A stretch of DNA of 59,021 nt, from the NCBI RefSeq assembly GCF_000495475.1, contig NZ_ASGZ01000035.1:1-59021 (forward strand), in the 5' to 3' direction. This DNA is from Candidatus Halobonum tyrrellensis G22. GTDB taxonomy: Archaea > Halobacteriota > Halobacteria > Halobacteriales > Haloferacaceae. Under the pieces are notes generated by a model, which had not been told where the DNA came from, made no database searches, and saw nothing but the letters and a program-made list of their open reading frames with translations. Numbering within the stretch: position 1 is the first letter of the stretch; each line of letters opens with the position of its first letter. The position numbers and the translations under genes were made by a program. Below, in pieces: positions 3,406 through 52,360 of this stretch.

Positions 3406-4722
3406 ATGGACGACCCCGACGCGGTCGACCGTGCGGACGCCGAGCGACGCGACGCGGCCGACCCGCTCGCGGGCTTCCGCGACCGGTTCGCGACCCCCGA
3501 CGGCGAGCGCTACATGGACGGCAACTCGCTGGGGCTCGCCCCCGCGGCGGCCGAGGCGAGCGTCGAGCGGGTGGTCGACGAGTGGCGCGACCTGGCGATA
3601 CGCGGGTGGGAGGCGGCCGACCCCGACTGGTTCTCGTACGCCGAGCAACTGAGCGACCGCCTCGCGCCCCTCGTCGGCGCGCGCGAGGGCGAGGTGGCGG
3701 TGGCCAACTCAACGACGGTGAACGTCCACACGCTGGTCGGGAGCTTCCTCGACCAGTTGCCCGGAACGCCCGCCGGCTCGGACCCCGCGGGGGAGGCGCC
3801 CGCGGTGGTGGTGAACGAACTCGACTTCCCGACCGACCACTACGCGGTCCGCGCGCAGTTGCGCCAGCGGGGCATCGACCCCGAGGGGAAACTCGCGGTC
3901 GTGGAGTCGCGCGACGGCCGGACGGTCCGCGCCGCGGACGTGGAGGCGACGCTCGACGAGCGCGACGACGCCGGCATCGTGTTCATGCCCTCGGTGCTGT
4001 ACCGCTCGGGGCAACTCCTCGACGTCGAGCGGATCGCGGCGGCCGCACACGAGGCGGGCGCGCTCGCGGGGTTCGACTGCGCCCACTCGGTGGGCGTCGT
4101 CGACCACGACCTACACGGTGCGGGCGTCGACTTCGCGGTCTGGTGTTCGTACAAGTACCTCAACGCCGGCCCGGGCGCGACTGCGGGGCTGTACGTCCAC
4201 GAGCGACACCACGACGTGACGCCCGCGCTCGCGGGCTGGTGGGGCCACGAGAAGGCGACCCAGTTCGAGATGCGCGGCGAGTACACCCCCGCGGCCGACG
4301 CCGGCCGCTGGCAGGTCGGGACGCCGCCGCTGCTGTCGACGGCGCCGCTGTCGGGCGCGCTCGACGTGTTGGAGGAGGCGGGCGTGGACCGAGTGCGCCG
4401 GAAGTCGGTCGCGCTCACCGACTACCTGATCGACCTGGTCGACGAGCGTCTCCCCGACGCGTTCGCGGTGGGGACGCCTCGCGACCCCGACCGCCGGGGC
4501 GGACACGTCGCGGTCGAACACCCCGACGGCTACCGGCTCAGCGAGGCGCTCCGCGACCGCGGCGTGGTGGTCGACTTCCGCCCGCCGAACGTCGTCCGGG
4601 TGTGTCCGTCGCCGCTGTACACGCGGTTCGTCGACGTGTGGGACGTAGTCGAGACGGTCCGGAAGGTGGTCGAGACGGACGCCCACCTCGACTACGAGAC
4701 GCGCGGCGGCGGCGTGACGTAG
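3406..4722 (+). CDS. kynU: Kynureninase
   Basis: A 438-residue PLP enzyme that cleaves kynurenine to anthranilate and alanine in cytosolic tryptophan catabolism. Diagnostic segments are YMDGNSLGLAP (residues 36-46), the PLP-lysine motif WCSYKYLNAGPGA (~246-258) and GWWGHEKATQFEM (~278-290). The length matches the family. The start ATG lies about 27 nt after a TATA-like CCTAAG (3376-3381), which fits a leaderless transcript. No other kynurenine-pathway gene is adjacent, so it is probably transcribed alone. Confidence 0.95.
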   Translation: MDDPDAVDRADAERRDAADPLAGFRDRFATPDGERYMDGNSLGLAPAAAEASVERVVDEWRDLAIRGWEAADPDWFSYAEQLSDRLAPLVGAREGEVAVANSTTVNVHTLVGSFLDQLPGTPAGSDPAGEAPAVVVNELDFPTDHYAVRAQLRQRGIDPEGKLAVVESRDGRTVRAADVEATLDERDDAGIVFMPSVLYRSGQLLDVERIAAAAHEAGALAGFDCAHSVGVVDHDLHGAGVDFAVWCSYKYLNAGPGATAGLYVHERHHDVTPALAGWWGHEKATQFEMRGEYTPAADAGRWQVGTPPLLSTAPLSGALDVLEEAGVDRVRRKSVALTDYLIDLVDERLPDAFAVGTPRDPDRRGGHVAVEHPDGYRLSEALRDRGVVVDFRPPNVVRVCPSPLYTRFVDVWDVVETVRKVVETDAHLDYETRGGGVT

Positions 4723-4763
4723 CCGGCGGCCGCCGACCGGTCCTGCGACCTCGCGTCAGCCGC

Positions 4764-4895
4764 TCACTCCACGAGGAACCGGTATGCGAGACCGACGACG
4801 ACGAGCAACAGTCCGAGTATCGACGCGCCGGGAATCGGGAGCAGGAGCACGGCCATGAGCAGTCCGACGACGACGGCGATGGTGGAGAGGCGCAC
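4764..4895 (-). CDS. Small two-TM membrane protein
   Basis: A 43-codon frame starts at GTG 4895-4893 and stops at 4766-4764. The product is almost entirely hydrophobic: residues 5-20 and 25-40 form two short membrane segments separated by a PIPGAS turn, ending in RFLVE. Its codon use matches neighbouring genes. It lies between convergent kynureninase and the lipid kinase. Such mini-proteins are common in haloarchaea, but I cannot assign a function. Support is coding-like composition only. Confidence 0.45.
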   Translation of the reverse strand: MRLSTIAVVVGLLMAVLLLPIPGASILGLLLVVVGLAYRFLVE

Positions 4896-5008
4896 ACCTC
4901 ACGCGAGGGGCGCCCGCCGAAAGCCGATGGTGGCAGGTCGGTTACCGGCTACCCACTGGTCGGCTCGTTCCGGGCTCGCGTCGGCCGTGACACCGCCTCC
5001 GTCGCCGC

Positions 5009-5920
5009 TCACTGCGGCGCCGGGTCGTACGACTCGCCCACGCGGATGTCGAGTTCGGCCCGGAGCAGCGTCATGTCGAGGTCGTCGTGGGTGCTCACCT
5101 CGCCGTCGCGGCTGAACGTGATCGGCTCGCCGTCGCTCTCGATGGACACCTCGCGGGCGCGGATGTGGTGGACGCCGTCGGTGTCGTCGTGACCTAACAG
5201 CCGCTGTTCGACCGCCTCCGCGACCAGGCTGCTCGCGTCCATCCGCTCGACGATGACCACGTCGAACCGGCCGTCCTCCATGTTCGCCCGCTCGTCGTCG
5301 TCGACGAACTTGCGGGCGTTGCCGACGAGGGCGCAGAGCGCCTCGCCTTCCCAACTCGACTCGTCGCCCGGGAGCGTCTCCTCGGTCTCGACCCGGATGT
5401 CGAGCCCGTCGAACTCGATGGTCTCCTCGATGGCGGTGACGACGAACGCGAGCGTGCCGAGCCGCTCTTTCAACTCGCCGGAGGCGGACGTACTCACGTC
5501 GGCGGGGAGACCCGCGATACAGGAGACGACGAACGGTTCGTCCTCCGCCAGCCCCACGTCGACCGAGCGGACCTCCCCCTCGGCGGCCACCTCGATCCCC
5601 TCGTCGACCGTCGAGATGCCGAGGTTGCGCGCGAGCAGGTTCGCCGTCCCCACGGGGACGATGGCGAACGTCACCTCCGAGAGCGCGTCGGCGTCGTACA
5701 GCCCGCAGAGCACGTCGTTTATCGTCCCGTCGCCGCCCGCGGCCGCGACCGTCTCGACGCCCGCCTCGCCCGCCTCGCGGGCCAACTCGACGGCGTGGTC
5801 GGCGCTCTCCGTCTCGCGAACCTCGAACCCGTTCGCCTCCATCCCCTCGGTGACGGACTCGACGTGGTCGGCCGCGCCGCTCATCGGGTTGAGGATACAG
5901 AGGCGAGAGACGGTCTGCAT
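5009..5920 (-). CDS. Diacylglycerol/lipid kinase family protein (YegS/DagK-like)
   Basis: A 303-residue protein with the DAGK catalytic fold. The N-terminus has the NPMSG phosphate-loop motif (residues 11-15), followed by the nucleotide motif AAGGDGTINDVL (~59-70) and VPVGTANLLARNLGI (~89-103). The C-terminal beta-sandwich domain carries the usual GNARKF segment. It probably phosphorylates a lipid alcohol at the inner membrane face using ATP. The TATA-like GTAAGTAGG (about 28 nt upstream) supports the ATG at 5920. It could also be a sphingosine-kinase-like or NAD-kinase-fold relative. Confidence 0.9.
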   Translation of the reverse strand: MQTVSRLCILNPMSGAADHVESVTEGMEANGFEVRETESADHAVELAREAGEAGVETVAAAGGDGTINDVLCGLYDADALSEVTFAIVPVGTANLLARNLGISTVDEGIEVAAEGEVRSVDVGLAEDEPFVVSCIAGLPADVSTSASGELKERLGTLAFVVTAIEETIEFDGLDIRVETEETLPGDESSWEGEALCALVGNARKFVDDDERANMEDGRFDVVIVERMDASSLVAEAVEQRLLGHDDTDGVHHIRAREVSIESDGEPITFSRDGEVSTHDDLDMTLLRAELDIRVGESYDPAPQ

Positions 5921-43380: not shown

Positions 43381-44979
43381 GTGGTCAACGTCGCCGCGGT
43401 GTTCGACCTGATCGGGTTCGTCGGGTTCGCCGGCGCGGCGGGGTACGCCGCGTTGAACTACCGCGACGCCGAGGTGGAGTCGGGGTTCTGGGCCAACTAC
43501 CTGCTCGCGGCGATACTCGGAGCGGCGTGGACTGGGGTCGTGCTCGCCGAGCACGCGGGGCTGGCGTGGGCGGTGCTCGACACGCTGAGCGTCTCGCTTC
43601 TGACCGCGACGGTCGCCGCGTTCGCGGTCGGCACCTCCGGGACGCTGTCGGTGGTCGACGACTCGAAGGCCGCCCGCGCCGACGCCGAACGCGAGGCCGA
43701 ACGCGCGCGGACCGCGCAGGCGTCCGCCGAGACCGCCCGCGAGGAGGCCGAGCGCGCGCGCTCGGAGACGGCGGAGCTGAACGAGGCCATCGAGTCCGAG
43801 GCGTCGTCGTTCGGCGCGTCGATGGGGCGGGCGGCCGACGGCGACCTGACGGTCCGGCTGGACGCCGACGGGCGGAGCGAGGCGCTCGCGTCGATCGCGA
43901 CGGCGTTCAACGGGATGATGGACGACATCGAGGAACTCGTCGCGGGCGTCGAGGGCGCGGCGGACCGCGTCGCCGACGCCTCGGGCGAGGTGGCCGAGGG
44001 GGCCGACCAGATCCGCGAGAGCACCGTGACGGTCAGCGGCGACGTGGAGACGGTGTCGTCGGAGACCGAACGGCAGGGCGAGCGGCTGCGCGAGGCGGCA
44101 AACGAGATGGGGCAGCTGTCGGCGACCGTCGAGGAGGTGGCTTCCTCGGCCGACGAGGTGGCGAGCGTCTCGCGGGAGGCGGCCGAGCGCGGCGAGGCGG
44201 GCGGGGAGTACGCCGCCGACGCGCTGTCGGAACTCGACGCGGTCGAACGGCGGGCGACCGAGGCGATCGGGCAGGTCGAACAGCTCGAACGCGAGGTCGA
44301 CGAGGTGGGCGAGATCGTCGAGGTGATCGGCGGGATCGCCGCCGAGACCAACCTGCTCGCGCTCAACGCGAGCATCGAGGCGGCGCGCGCGGACACGTCG
44401 GGCGACGGGTTCGCGGTGGTCGCAGAGGAGATCAAGGTGCTCGCCGAGGAGGCGTCGACGGCGGCGGGCGACATCGAGGCGCTCGTCGGCGACATCCAGG
44501 CGGCGACCGACGAGGCCGCTGACAACATGCGCGCGACCGGCGAGCGGGTGCGCGAGGGCCGTGACACCATCGACGGCGCGCTGGGCGCGCTCGACGACGT
44601 GAGCGACCGGATCGAGGCGGCCGACGCGGGCGTCCAGGAGATCAACCGCGCGACCGACTCGCAGGCCGCCTCCACCGAGGAGGTGGTGTCGATGGTCGAG
44701 GAGGCCGCCGCCTCCGGCGAGTCCGCGGTCGACACCGTCGACGGGGTCGCCGCGGCGGCAGAACAGACCGCCGCCTCGACCGCCCAGATCTCCGAGCGCG
44801 CCGAGGGGCTGTCCGACCTGGCGACGGACCTGTCGGCCGCGCTCGCGCGCTTCGAGACCGGAGTCGACGGGGAGATGGGCGACGGAGCGGGCGGCCGCGA
44901 CGCGGCGGGCGTCGGTCCCCGCGGGTCGGGCGCCGACGGCCCGGCGGTCGCCGACGGGGGCCGCGACCACGAGGAGTGA
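43381..44979 (+). CDS. Methyl-accepting chemotaxis transducer (Htr family)
   Basis: A 532-residue transducer starting at GTG with zero spacing from the upstream stop. Residues ~1-80 hold three membrane segments and no extracellular sensor domain. HAMP-like coiled coil and long adaptation region follow, with the signalling tip [27 protein letters not shown] (~316-342, quoted in part) that contacts CheW/CheA. A low-complexity tail ends the protein. Lacking its own sensing domain, it most likely takes its signal from the adjacent three-TM protein or from membrane potential/proton flux. Confidence 0.9.
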
Positions 44980-47091: not shown

Positions 47092-49371
47092 TCACTCCCC
47101 CGACGCGACCCCGGTGAACTCGAAGCGCGCGCCGCCCGCGGGGCCGTCGGTCGTGTGCACCTGCCAGCCGTGGGCGTCGACCACCTCGCGGACGATCGAC
47201 AGCCCGAATCCGGTGCCCTGGCTCGCCGTCGAGAAGCCCGCCTCGAACACCGCCTCGCGGTCGTCTGCGGGGATACCCGCCCCGTCGTCCGCGACGTAGA
47301 ACCCGTCGTCCAGGCCGCCGACCGTCACCGTGACCCCCGTACCGCCGTGTTCGACCGCGTTGCGGAACAGGTTCTCGAACAGCTGTTCGAGTCGAGTGCC
47401 GTCCGCGCGAACCGTCCGGTCGGTCTCGACGCGGAGCCGCGCGTCGCCCGTCGGGACGTTCGCCCACGACCGCTCGGCGGTCGCCCCGAGATCGAACGTC
47501 GACGGGTCGTCGACCGCGACCCCGGACCGCGCGAGCACCAGCAGGTCGTCGATCAGCGCGGTCATCCGGTCGAGCGCACGCCGCGCGTCCGCGAGCCGGT
47601 CGAGGTCGCCCGTTTCCTCGGCCAGTTCGATCGACCCCTGGGCGACGTTGAGCGGGTTCCGGAGGTCGTGTGAGACGATCGACGCGAACCGGTCGAGCCG
47701 GTCGTTCGTCTGCTGGCGCTGTAGCTCGTAGCTCACCCACCGGCTCATGAGTTCGACCAGCGTCACCTCCCACTCGGAGAACCCCTCGGCGCGCGGCTCG
47801 CTCCCGTAGAAACAGAACGTCCCGTAGACGTCCTCGTCGTCGAACACCGGCGCACCGAGGTAACAGGTGATCCCCCACTCCGAGAACCCGGCGCGGTCGG
47901 TCTCCTCGGGCGCGTCGCGTTCGACGTCACCGATGGCGAGCGTCTCCCGGCGCTCGACGGCGATCTCGCAGTTGGTCGCCGACACCGGCACCACGTCGCC
48001 CTCGTCGATACCCCCGCCGTCGGCGTCGACCACCTCGAAGACGTACTCGTCGCCGCGGACCCGCGAGAGCGTCCCGTAGTCGACTCCGAGCTGTTGGCGC
48101 CCGAGTTCCAGCAGCGCGCGAACCTGCTCGTCGAACGACCGGTCGCGGTCGGCGATCACCTCGTACATCTCCCGGAGGACGCGCTCGCGCCCCCGCCGGT
48201 CGGTGATGTCCTGGTCGGAGACCACGATCTCGGTCACCTCCCCCTCGTCGTCCGTCACCGGCCTGAACACGCCGCTCACGACGCGTCGCCCGTCGGAGCT
48301 GACGACCTCCGTCTCGAACGGGACGTACTCGCCCGCGGCGGCGCGCTCGACCCACTCCTCGACGTCCCGTTCGAGCGCGTCGTCGTCGCCCCACCACGGG
48401 GTCTCGCTGAACGGCCGACCGACGATGGCGTCGAAGTCGGCGTCGATGTACTCCATCGCGGTCCGGTTGACGTCGCGCACCGTCCCGTCGGGGGCGAGCA
48501 CGGCCGCGAGGATGTTGGGGTCCTCGAACATCGCCTCGTACTGGCGCTGTGCGCTCGCGAGTTCGAACTCGCGCGCCTTCCGGTCGGTCACGTCGCGGGT
48601 GAACCCGCCGATGTGCGTGACCGACCCCGCCGCGTCGGTGATCGGGTCGGCTTTGACCCAGACGTGGCGTCCGTACTCCTCGCTCTCGTTGACCCGGTAC
48701 TCGATGTCGATCGACTCGCCGGCCGAGAGCCTCGCCATCGCCCGCCGGACCCGCTCGCGGTCGTCGGGGTGGATCGCGTCGAGGAACGCGCTCGCGTCGT
48801 CGTGGAGCGTCGACCGCGGCTCGCCGTACACCTCCTCGTAGGACTCGGACATGAACACGACGTCCTCCCAGTCGTGCGAGAACAGCCACAGCACGTCGTC
48901 GGCGCTGTTGGCGAGTTCGGAGAACAGCCGCTGGGTCTCGTCCACCGAACTCCGGGCGCGTTCCCGTTCGACCACGTTCACGATCCGGTTCGCGAGGACG
49001 GCGTAGTGGTCGGTCCCGGTCTCCTTCTGGAGGTAGTCGGTCGCGCCGGCCGTGATCGCCTCGCTCGCGACCTCCTCGGACCCCTTGCCGGTGTAGAGGA
49101 TGAACGGCAGGTCGGGCCACTCGGCGCGGATCGCCTCGAGGAAGTCGATGCCGTTCCGACCCGCCATGTCGTAGTCGGAGACGACGCAGTCGAACTCCGC
49201 GTCCGCGAGCAGGTCCAGCCCCTCGCCCGCGCTCGCCACCGTCTCGACGGCGAGTCGGTCGTTCGTCCGTTCGAGGAACGTCGCGACCAGGTCGCCGAGA
49301 CCCGGTTCGTCGTCGACGTGGAGGACCCTGATCGTCCCCGTCGCCGGCGGCGCGGCCGCGACCCCGCTCAT
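47092..49371 (-). CDS. Hybrid sensor histidine kinase (REC-PAS-PAS-GAF-HisKA-HATPase)
   Basis: A 759-residue cytoplasmic kinase. Residues ~14-130 are a receiver with phospho-acceptor Asp in CVVSDYDMAGRNG. Two PAS domains follow (~145-265, ~270-390), then a GAF domain (~400-545) with SATNCEIAVERRETLAIGD, the HisKA box FASIVSHDLRNPLNV (phospho-His) and the HATPase N/G boxes FRNAVEHGG, DDGAGIP and GTGFGLSIV. Start ATG 49371 gives MSGVAAAPPATGTIRVLHVDDEP. It has no membrane segment. It is divergent from the rhodopsin/transducer operon and may share its light or redox context, which is inference. Confidence 0.92.
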   Translation of the reverse strand: MSGVAAAPPATGTIRVLHVDDEPGLGDLVATFLERTNDRLAVETVASAGEGLDLLADAEFDCVVSDYDMAGRNGIDFLEAIRAEWPDLPFILYTGKGSEEVASEAITAGATDYLQKETGTDHYAVLANRIVNVVERERARSSVDETQRLFSELANSADDVLWLFSHDWEDVVFMSESYEEVYGEPRSTLHDDASAFLDAIHPDDRERVRRAMARLSAGESIDIEYRVNESEEYGRHVWVKADPITDAAGSVTHIGGFTRDVTDRKAREFELASAQRQYEAMFEDPNILAAVLAPDGTVRDVNRTAMEYIDADFDAIVGRPFSETPWWGDDDALERDVEEWVERAAAGEYVPFETEVVSSDGRRVVSGVFRPVTDDEGEVTEIVVSDQDITDRRGRERVLREMYEVIADRDRSFDEQVRALLELGRQQLGVDYGTLSRVRGDEYVFEVVDADGGGIDEGDVVPVSATNCEIAVERRETLAIGDVERDAPEETDRAGFSEWGITCYLGAPVFDDEDVYGTFCFYGSEPRAEGFSEWEVTLVELMSRWVSYELQRQQTNDRLDRFASIVSHDLRNPLNVAQGSIELAEETGDLDRLADARRALDRMTALIDDLLVLARSGVAVDDPSTFDLGATAERSWANVPTGDARLRVETDRTVRADGTRLEQLFENLFRNAVEHGGTGVTVTVGGLDDGFYVADDGAGIPADDREAVFEAGFSTASQGTGFGLSIVREVVDAHGWQVHTTDGPAGGARFEFTGVASGE

Positions 49372-49988
49372 GCGACCGTCGCCCGCGGGGGGGCGGTGCC
49401 GACGCTCAACGAGGCGCCGTCCGCGCCCGCAGTTCCGGACGACGACACCGACCCGCGAGCGGACGCTCGCCGGGGGGTGCGGAACTGGGCGACGACGGCG
49501 CCGGGCGTGTAACCCCGGCTGGAGTGCGTCGGTGTCATAGGCGTACTGTCCCGTGCGCTCGGACGGTTCGGGGGTCGTCGGGTCCCGGTGAGGGGGGGTG
49601 CCGGGTCCGCGTTCGACCGACGGAACCGCGACCACGTCGTGACACGGCTGCGGATACTTTACGAAACGGACTCAGCGATAAATATGTGGTGGATACGCGT
49701 CGGTCGGCGGGGCGGCGAGCGGTCCGTCGGTGTCGGAACCGTCGGATCCGGTCGCTCGGGCGGGTCGTGCCCGCCCCCGGCTGACCGGGGAACGACCCCG
49801 TTCGCGGCGGTCCGCGCCGTCGTCGCCCGCCCGAACGGGACGACCGACGGGTGGGAGACGCCGACGCGCCGTCCGTCACCCGACGGACTCCGTCCGCGGA
49901 GGCTCGGTCCCTAGGAGGCGGCCCGAGACTCAGAACCGATATTTGACGACGAGGGTTGATGGGGGGGCGAGCCGTCGGACCGCGCAAG
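49372..49988. other. Intergenic region between divergent histidine kinase and htrI-sopI
   Basis: This 617-bp gap has two AT-rich patches. One is at ~49655-49690 (CTTTACGAAACGG, GATAAATATG), suitable as a divergent promoter area. The other is CGATATTTGACG at 49938-49949, about 45 nt upstream of the transducer start. No convincing protein frame crosses it. Regulatory sites for light- or oxygen-responsive control could lie here, but none can be defined. Confidence 0.5.
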
Positions 49989-51599
49989 ATGGTACGACTA
50001 CTCCGACGGAGCTTCGCGGCGAAGCTCCTCGTCGGCTTCGCGCTGACGACGGCCGCGACCGTCGGCTACGGACTCGTGACGGGGAACGTCGTCGGGACGA
50101 TACTGATGTCGACCGCCGGGCAGGTGGTGCTCGGGGCGTACCTCGGGACGAACACGGTCGTCTCGATGCGGACGCTCGAAGCACAGACCGAGGCGATCGC
50201 CGACGGCGACCTCGACGTGCGCGTGCGGGCCTCGCGGGTCGACGAACTGGGTCGGGTGTACAACTCCGTCGACCGGATGCGCGGGTCGCTCGCGGCGCGG
50301 ATCGCCGACGCCGACGAGGCGCGGGCGGAGGCCGAGGCGGCCGAGGAGCGCGCGCAGTCGATGGCGGCCGACTACCGGCTGACGGCGAGCGACTACGCCG
50401 AGACGATGCGCGCGGTCGCCGCCGGCGACCTGGGGCGGCGGGTCGACGTCGACCGCGACCACGAGGCGATGGAGACGGTCGGCGAGGCGTTCAACGACAC
50501 CGTCGACGAACTGGAGGCGGCGCTCGCGCGGGTCAACGCGTTCGCGGCCGACATCGCCGACGGCGCCGTCGACGTGCGCAGCGCCGCCGAGCGGATCGAC
50601 GACCGCACCGACGACGTGCTCGCGGCGACCGACGACATCGACGCCGCGACCGACGAACAGCGGGCGACCGCCCGCGAGGGTGCCGACGAGACGGCCGACC
50701 TCTCGGCGACCGCCGAGGAGGTGGCCGCCACGACCGAGTCGCTCGTCGAGACCACCGACGAGGCGGCCGACGCCTCCGCGGACGCGCGGGTGGCCGCCGG
50801 CGACGCGATCGAGACGATGGACGACGTGGACAGTACGATGAGCGACGCGGTCGACCGGATCGAGACGCTCGACGATGCGACCGCCGAGATCACCGAGGCG
50901 GCCGAACTGATCCGCGAGATCGCCGAACAGACCAACATGCTCGCGCTCAACGCGAGCATCGAGGCCGCCCGCGCCGGCGGCGGGGGCGACGCCGGCGCCG
51001 ACGGCGAGGGGTTCGCGGTCGTCGCCGAGGAGGTCAAGCGGCTGGCGGAGGACACCGGCGACCGCGCGGACGCCATCGCGGGGATGATCGACGAGGTGCG
51101 CACCGAGACCGAGCGCGCGGTCGAGTCGATCCGCGCGACCAGCGAGCGGGTGAGCGACGGGTCGGCGACCGTCGCGGAGGCGGTCGACCGCCTCGACGAT
51201 ATCGCCACCGCCGTCGAGGACCTCGACCAGGGGGTCCGCGAGATCAGCGACGCGACCGCCCAGCAGGCGTCGGCGGCCGCGGGCGTCTCCGAGACGATCG
51301 ACACCCTCGCGGCCAACAGCGACCGGACGGCCGAGCGCGCGGCCGCCGCCAACACCGCCGCCAGCGAGCAGTCGCCCGCGGTCGACGCGGTGGTCGAGGA
51401 GTCGGAGGCGTTCCGCGAGCGGTCGGCCGACTTACTCGACGCGCTCTCGACGTTCGAGGTGCGCGAGTCGGCCGCCGACGGGCCGGCGGGCGGGGCTTCG
51501 GCGGGCGGCACCGCGGGACCGTCGGGGTCGACCCCGCGGGCGGTGGGTGACGGCGGCGTCGAGACCGACGGCGGCCGCGAGGGAGGTGACGGGCGATGA
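49989..51599 (+). CDS. htrI: Sensory rhodopsin transducer, HtrI-like
   Basis: A 536-residue transducer, the same length as the Halobacterium salinarum HtrI I remember. ATG 49989 is chosen over ATG 49959 because the latter would lie upstream of the expected transcript start. Two membrane helices (~12-32 and ~34-58) with almost no external loop lack a ligand-binding domain. The HAMP region includes [20 protein letters not shown] and [19 protein letters not shown], closely matching HtrI. The signalling tip is [20 protein letters not shown]. The stop overlaps the rhodopsin start (ATGA). TM2 has Asn55 where HtrI has Glu56. Confidence 0.9.
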
Positions 51600-52360
51600 T
51601 CGGCGGTCTCGACGCCGCGACGCTCGAACCGCTGGTGTACGCGACCGGGACGCTCGGCATGCTCGTCGGCGTCGCGGTGGTGGCGTCGCTGCTGCGGGAC
51701 GACTCGCTCGACGCCGACGCGGGCGAGTTCCGCCGCCTGCTCGTCGTCCCGGCGTTCGCCGCGCTGGCGTACCTGTCGATGACGATCGGGCTGGGGGCGG
51801 TGGTCGGCGGCGGCACGGAGGCGCAGGCCGCCCGCTACCTCGACTGGTTCGTCACGACCGCGGTGATGGTGTGGTACGTCGGCCACGTGGTCGGCGTCGA
51901 CCGCAAGTGGCTGGCGACGGCCGCCGGACTCGACGCGCTGTTCATCTCGGGCGGCTGGGTCGCGACGACGACGACCGGCGCGGTCAAGTGGGCGGCGTTC
52001 GGCGTGAGCTGTCTCGCGTTCGCCGCGACGATGGTCGTCCTCTTCCGGGTGTACCCCGCGAACGCGGGCGAGACGACGCCCGAGCGGCGTCGGCTGTTCC
52101 TCCGGCTGCGCAACCAGAGCAGCGTCGTCTGGCTGGTGTACCCGGTCGTCTGGCTCGCCAGCCCCGCCGGCTTCGACGCCGTCTCGACGCTCGGGACCGC
52201 GATGCTGGTGACGTTCCTCGACGTGGCCGCGAAGGTGCCGTACACGTGGGTCGTCTACGAGCACCGCGGCGTGTTCGGCCGCGACCGGGACGACCCGACC
52301 GTCGCCGACGCCGACGACGACCCCGCGACGGCCGACGCGCCGCCCGCGACGGCCGACTGA
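51596..52360 (+). CDS. sopI: Sensory rhodopsin, SRI-like, with unusual residues
   Basis: A 254-residue seven-helix retinal protein. Lys213 ([10 protein letters not shown]) is the retinal Schiff-base lysine, with counter-ions Asp209 and Asp83 ([10 protein letters not shown], bacteriorhodopsin Asp85). Arg80, Trp84, Thr87, Trp179, Tyr182 and Trp186 match pocket residues. Tyr94 replaces the proton-donor Asp96, so it is a sensor rather than a pump. Unusually, Ala89 replaces the near-invariant helix-C proline, and Gln174 replaces SRI His166. It overlaps the transducer gene by 4 nt. Assignment to the SRI branch rests on helix E-G similarity ([17 protein letters not shown]); the C-terminal tail is acidic. 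Confidence 0.88.

Follow-up and report, generated by a model that had tools for sequence, protein, structure and literature searches.

A conserved sensory rhodopsin–transducer pair of Candidatus Halobonum tyrrellensis probably represents an SRI-type phototaxis lineage outside the classic SRI–HtrI clade

INTRODUCTION

Classic sensory rhodopsin I (SRI), which signals through the transducer HtrI, absorbs near 585 nm and gives an attractant response to one photon and a repellent response to two. How one receptor sends opposite signals to different colours is a long-standing question, and has been approached mostly through mutants of H. salinarum. The sign of the SRI–HtrI signal follows the side to which the Schiff base faces, i.e. 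cytoplasmic or extracellular; changes of HtrI Glu56 and of SRI Asn165 or His166 favour the outward-facing form and invert the response, and changes of HtrI Asn53 and SRI Arg215 (and 84) restore the attractant response (PMC3274258). The last of these sites is written 'Arg84' in that review, whereas in our alignment H. salinarum SRI has Leu at position 84. SRI has been proposed to bring cells to light that is usable by bacteriorhodopsin (BR) (PMC6450946).

'Candidatus Halobonum tyrrellensis' G22 from Lake Tyrrell has been described as a sister of Halobaculum that carries 'a putative sensory rhodopsin' (PMC3861417). Here, we analysed the receptor–transducer operon found on its contig NZ_ASGZ01000035.1, the whole 59,021 nucleotides of which are referred to as the window. 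We consider, with a probability of about three in four, that the operon encodes a functional, retinal-binding phototaxis sensor with a dedicated transducer, which would belong to a deep SRI-type lineage outside classic SRI–HtrI.

RESULTS

Architecture of the operon and its neighbourhood

The G22 genome comprises 3,675,087 bases in 72 contigs, and the receptor of the operon is the sole rhodopsin found in it. The transducer and receptor genes (Table 1) share an ATGA overlap of stop and start codons, and the transducer tip for CheA/CheW (21 residues) is conserved. An AlphaFold2 model of the receptor had a mean pLDDT of 90, and its top matches among known structures were N. pharaonis SRII entries (Z ~30); in a sequence comparison with the PDB, both the receptor and the transducer matched best to chain 9wxr ('Rhodopsin,Chemotaxis protein'), a fused pair of the classic SRI–HtrI type.

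Table 1. Positions in the window of the operon genes, their key codons and two neighbouring genes
Feature	Position	Strand	Description
Second methyl-accepting transducer-like protein	43381..44976		MCPsignal domain; no HAMP by Pfam
Large receiver-PAS-GAF-histidine kinase	47092..49635	-	just upstream of the operon, oriented away from it
Htr-type phototaxis transducer	49989..51599	+	536 aa, ATG start; two N-terminal TM helices, HAMP, MCP signalling domain
Leu52 codon, transducer	50142..50144	+	HtrI N53, suppressor site
Asn55 codon, transducer	50151..50153	+	HtrI E56
SRI-type sensory rhodopsin	51596..52360	+	254 aa, ATG start; Pfam Bac_rhodopsin, 120 bits
Asp83 codon	51842..51844	+	BR D85 / SRI D76, Schiff-base counter-ion position
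Ala89 codon	51860..51862	+	BR P91 / SRI P82
Met91 codon	51866..51868	+	BR L93 / SRI L84; Leu in 31/31 other SRI-type receptors
Trp93 codon	51872..51874	+	BR L95 / SRI G86; Gly/Ala in 31/31 other SRI-type receptors
Phe116 codon	51941..51943	+	BR M118 / SRI M109; Met in 31/31 other SRI-type receptors
Gln174 codon	52115..52117	+	SRI H166
Asp209 codon	52220..52222	+	BR D212 / SRI D201
Lys213 codon	52232..52234	+	retinal Schiff-base lysine, SRI K205; followed by the SRI-type KVP motif
His223 codon	52262..52264	+	SRI R215, suppressor site of inverting mutations

The second transducer-like protein shares 71% identity with one encoded near the operon of G355, a related genome considered below. With the kinase gene and the small membrane protein gene that precedes it, the spacing is wider than around the seven other operons of the clade described below, and these two genes look like an insertion in the Halobonum lineage.

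Residues of the retinal pocket and of the receptor–transducer interface

SRI numbering follows the H. salinarum sequence, which matched the SRI of one sampled genome (G064) with 100% identity across 239 aa. The receptor residues Lys213, Asp83, Asp209, Ala89 and Gln174, which a first-pass annotation of the window had singled out, are all present and align with the SRI and BR positions it had assigned to them; alignment likewise agrees with its equation of the transducer residues Asn55 and Leu52 with HtrI Glu56 and Asn53, and its naming of His166 and Glu56 as inverting sites matches the review (PMC3274258).

Set against SRII and BR, the G22 receptor groups with SRI. It has the KVP motif, in which Pro215 stands where both SRII and BR carry Gly, and Ala212 precedes the retinal Lys, a position taken by Thr or Ser in SRII; no grouping with SRII appeared in the trees. 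Tyr94 occupies BR position 96, the site of the proton donor Asp in BR, so the cytoplasmic donor is absent as in sensors, and the red-side tuning residues are Ala (BR 215) and Ser (BR 141). SRI Asn165 is kept. At the SRI His166 site, Gln was found in all eight receptors of the G22 clade, His in all 26 other SRI-type receptors and hydrophobic residues in SRII and BR. The HtrI Glu56 site is Asn in the eight transducers of the clade as well as in 9/9 transducers of SRII-side receptors, and Glu there is confined to classic HtrI (11/11). Pro occupies the SRI 82 site of all 31 other SRI-type receptors, with Ala only in G22 and in the related genomes G355 and G399.

The operon is conserved in eight genomes

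A family search over 170 genomes yielded seven close relatives of the receptor (61–73% identity), all belonging to one neighbouring genus, g10, and the next-best receptors beyond these reached at most 46% identity. As Halobaculum is the published sister of Halobonum, g10 is probably Halobaculum. In G22 and the seven g10 genomes, together called clade C, the transducer gene invariably runs straight into the receptor gene, overlapping its start, and the same MutS-family gene adjoins the operon, i.e. its chromosomal position is conserved; over the first 500 aa, the G22 transducer is 83–86% identical to six of its orthologues and 71% to the seventh. Gln174, Asn55 and Leu52 are fixed in 8/8 of these operons, and Ala89 occurs in 3/8. 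Judged from the aligned sequences, Gln174, Asn55 and Leu52 are lineage traits and not drift, and the earlier suggestion of a coherent receptor–transducer pair in place of random drift is borne out by a pair that is conserved in eight genomes and stands outside classic SRI–HtrI.

Trees of receptors, of transducers and of both joined were then computed for 44 receptor–transducer operons, with the trait columns left out and the residue states read by eye from the rooted trees; these trees contain neither Salinibacter SRI nor SRM. The eight genomes formed one clade with support of 99/98 to 100/100.

A receptor subtype with Ala89 and a nearly unchanged transducer

The three Ala89 receptors (G22, G355 and G399) share Ala/Met/Trp/Phe at SRI positions 82/84/86/109, of which 82, 84 and 109 are invariant among the 31 other SRI-type receptors, and also have Ser-Ser at SRI 167/168, adjoining Gln174. 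SRI 109 (Phe116 here) lies at the β-ionone end of the retinal pocket, and BR 91, 93 and 118 (SRI 82, 84 and 109) are taken here to be retinal-pocket positions; counted in this way, the changes of the Ala89 subtype were not significantly enriched in the pocket (3/9 versus 15/75, p 0.40). A DNA pattern encoding RYxDWxxTT[A/S] was found in two (G22 and G355) of 392 genomes searched in the order, and its Pro version in 205; a peptide-pattern scan of the genome contigs gave no hits beyond SRII loci in Haloarcula and its relatives. On the sequence comparison, Ala89 is a third and later event, separate from Gln174 and Asn55 and found in three genomes.

Compared with G210, G158, G260 and G402, the Ala89 genomes have receptors of only 54–61% identity and transducers of 83–93%. 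Between the Ala89 and Pro89 subtypes, receptor dN was 0.29–0.33 and transducer dN 0.05–0.10, a ratio of 3–7, versus mostly 0.9–2 elsewhere (3.2 for the near-identical G091–G083 pair). The receptor tree joined G22 with G355 and G399, and a grouping of the latter two receptors with the rest of their own genus was rejected (AU p 3e-5 and 5e-5); in the transducer tree the three stayed apart (AU p 0.064 for joining them), and their grouping was weakly rejected by the adjacent MutS-family gene (p 0.039). When G355 and G399 were aligned with the Pro89 genomes, identity stayed high up to the variable tail of the transducer and dropped at the receptor start. The tree conflict and the drop in identity would fit a swap in which only the receptor gene was exchanged, between the Halobonum lineage and part of the sister genus, with the transducer and neighbouring genes left in place, and we give this origin slightly less than an even chance: strong selection on the receptor along two branches could look alike, and with synonymous sites near saturation the divergence is not datable. 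Such an exchange would account for the origin of the receptor and is compatible with the sensor function proposed here.

In the reading we propose, the receptor alone would have been re-tuned later in G22 and its two relatives, beside a near-unchanged transducer. Because Ala, Met, Trp and Phe stand at sites next to retinal, the colour or the photocycle of the re-tuned receptor would be expected to differ from those of its sister receptors. In BR, Leu93 and Thr90 contact the C13 methyl group of retinal, and the L93A mutant has a long-lived O state (PMC3411786). The existence of a crystal structure of the BR mutant P91A (1q5j) makes the Pro to Ala change at BR 91 compatible with folding.

Order of residue changes and relation to classic SRI–HtrI

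For comparison, the SRI-type operons were divided into group A, the 11 classic SRI–HtrI pairs; group B, 15 paraphyletic pairs drawn from several families, with subsets B1 to B3; and group C, the G22 clade. All 11 pairs of group A have His166 and Glu56. In group B, His166 is present in 15/15 receptors and Glu56 in none of the 14 readable transducers, which have Asn, Ala, Thr or Ser, with Asn in those of B2; all eight pairs of group C combine Gln at SRI 166 with Asn at HtrI 56. The HtrI 56 site of N. pharaonis HtrII is presumably Asp.

Clade C fell outside classic SRI plus all of B2 and B3 in the receptor, transducer and joint trees alike, and a grouping of C with B2 was rejected by the joint data (AU p 4e-11). 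In the full trees, C branched before all of A and B with 97–99% support. When the long-branched rows were dropped, support for this basal position fell to 67/36. A grouping of C with B1 was not rejected (AU p 0.11 and 0.068, and 0.44 with those rows dropped); at such support we do not claim clade C as the sister of all other SRI.

Read along these trees, Glu56 arose late and only once, on the stem leading to classic HtrI, which is nested within group B. Asn55 is most simply the older state, retained and not lost, because the SRII-side transducers (9/9) and several SRI-type relatives have Asn, and clade C probably never had the Glu56 switch residue. His166 appears older than Glu56, and the two came or went separately, since the intermediates of group B have the former and lack the latter. 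Both loss of His166 in clade C and its never having been present fit, the order of the deepest two branches being variable. The first-pass annotation had taken 'losing both together' as a sign of a differently wired photoreceptor; the distinct lineage stands and lends its suspicion partial support, but we reject the coupled loss of Glu56 and His166, as Glu56 was gained once on the classic stem and Asn is most simply the older state. The G22 pair may be regarded as an old side branch outside the classic SRI–HtrI clade, SRI-type in the broad sense.

Two further loci were noted around these groups. The sensory rhodopsin of L086 (G296b), a long-branched outlier, joins just outside the SRI-type receptors and is without KVP and without His166; its transducer has a large extracellular domain and Ser at the HtrI 56 site. 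L117 (G051) encodes a group B SRI-type receptor at 4617-5330 (- strand), upstream of which the transducer ORF comprises only a C-terminal part that matches its relatives over residues ~320-511; the portion with the TM helices and HAMP was not found at this locus.

An ordinary SRI–HtrI pair with drifted residues, which would keep the orange-light attractant and two-photon repellent responses, is an improbable description of the G22 pair. It would fit the KVP motif, the Ala and Ser at BR positions 215 and 141, and the shared operon order and transducer architecture, and changes at the suppressor sites could offset those at the inverting sites. Against it, the three interface residues are fixed across the clade, which lies outside classic SRI in every tree, and no classic pair (0/11) is without His166 or Glu56; His at SRI 135, which corresponds to the chloride-site His131 in Salinibacter SRI if the numbering is offset by 4 as inferred, is Phe here. 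Nor do close relatives classed as ordinary SRI share the G22 residues, the case that would have told against the original proposal: equivalents of Ala89, Gln174 or Asn55 occur in 0/11 classic SRIs.

Evidence for a working sensor

Purifying selection acts on the receptor, with a dN/dS of ~0.3 between G22 and G355 and of 0.16–0.33 within subtypes. A gene for the retinal-forming enzyme BCD is present in all eight genomes of clade C, compared with 3/23 rhodopsin-less genomes of the family and 0/2 of those in g10. CheA, CheB, CheR and CheW genes are present in G22, as are those of archaellin, ArlH, ArlI and ArlJ, the last three above the NCBIfam equivalog cut-offs; the che and archaellum genes (archaellin, FlaC/D/E, ArlH, ArlI and ArlJ) lie on contig C8 (loci L138–L141). 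The genome announcement states that flagellar-system genes are absent in Ca. Halobonum tyrrellensis (PMC3861417), which the archaellum and che genes on C8 contradict. The gene content argues that the organism is motile and phototactic. The BCD gene is also carried by three genomes of another genus, g4 (G076, G153 and G222), with no match to a type-1 rhodopsin.

That the Ala89 receptor is relaxed or decaying and no real photosensor is very improbable: dN/dS is raised to 0.4–0.6 between the Ala89 and Pro89 subtypes and Pro was lost at a site universal in the sampled rhodopsins, but within the Ala89 subtype dN/dS is 0.16 (G355–G399) and 0.30 (G22–G355), no catalytic residue has been lost, conservation of the transducer is high, and G22 retains the retinal-forming gene with this receptor as its sole rhodopsin.

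DISCUSSION

A candidate mechanism follows the general scheme of known sensory rhodopsin–Htr systems. Light would isomerise retinal, receptor helices F and G would shift against TM2 of the transducer, and the signal would run through HAMP to CheA/CheW and on to the archaellum. Since the Glu56 and His166 side chains, which keep the Schiff base of classic SRI facing the cytoplasm, are absent, the resting state is probably SRII-like with the Schiff base facing outward, and the pair would act as a one-photon sensor without the attractant/repellent colour switch of SRI.

The sign of the response is, in our analysis, much less certain than the identity and placement of the sensor. We put the odds slightly in favour of a repellent over an attractant response (about 55:45 to 60:40), because two of the inverting sites lack the classic residue, Asn55 is HtrII-like, and G22 has no pump that would make an attractant response useful, which argues against a role in bringing cells to BR-usable light. 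The pump argument covers G22 only, as its seven relatives in clade C have additional rhodopsins that may be pumps. Compared with classic SRI, the G22 pair differs at Glu56, His166, Asn53, Arg215 and 84 together, and since the suppressor sites have changed as well (Asn53 to Leu, Arg215 to His), the sign is not readable from these residues; the SRI mutants inform on the H. salinarum background and not on a wholly different interface. A fuller account, which we advance tentatively and hold to be rather less likely than its alternatives taken together, would make the pair a separate class, i.e. a living branch from before the switch, with a Gln174/Asn55 interface, an outward Schiff base, a one-photon repellent response and an Ala89/Met91/Trp93/Phe116 subtype that was re-tuned or exchanged.

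The SRI-type operons examined form a natural series: KVP is common to every one of them, His166 is missing only from the receptors of clade C, and the series continues with His135 in B2, B3 and classic SRI, and Glu56 and Asn53 in classic HtrI only. This series predicts which natural pairs switch sign and which do not, and within it the G22 pair can show how the colour-sensitive SRI switch was built. In addition, a near-constant transducer working with two very different receptor subtypes amounts to a natural receptor-swap experiment.

Among the known systems, classic SRI–HtrI (H. salinarum; 9wxr) shares with G22 the transducer–receptor order and overlapping genes, the Lys and both Asp, KVP, Asn165 and a two-TM/HAMP/MCP transducer without a large extracellular domain. 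It is about 36–40% identical in the receptor, and the G22 pair differs from it in having Gln for His166, Asn for Glu56, Leu for Asn53, His for Arg215, Phe for His135, Trp for Tyr210 and Val for Phe211, and, as traits of its subtype, Ala82/Met84/Trp86/Phe109 (SRI numbering). The SRI-type pairs without Glu56 (B1–B3; 15 genomes of at least three families) have the same operon type and KVP, but keep His166, Tyr143 and Phe211, and their receptors are 38–46% identical to that of G22. SRII–HtrII of N. pharaonis and others resembles the G22 pair in Asn at the Glu56 site (9/9), in fold (Z ~30) and in Phe or Tyr at SRI 135 (Phe in G22), and differs in Thr/Ser and Gly at the positions one before and two after the Lys, a receptor identity of ~25–30% and a separate clade. 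SRM of Haloarcula marismortui, a further type of sensory rhodopsin besides SRI and SRII, also has a transducer of its own, HtrM; this is without the methyl-accepting and CheA/CheW tip regions (PMC6450946), whereas the G22 transducer has both the MCPsignal domain and the tip motif.
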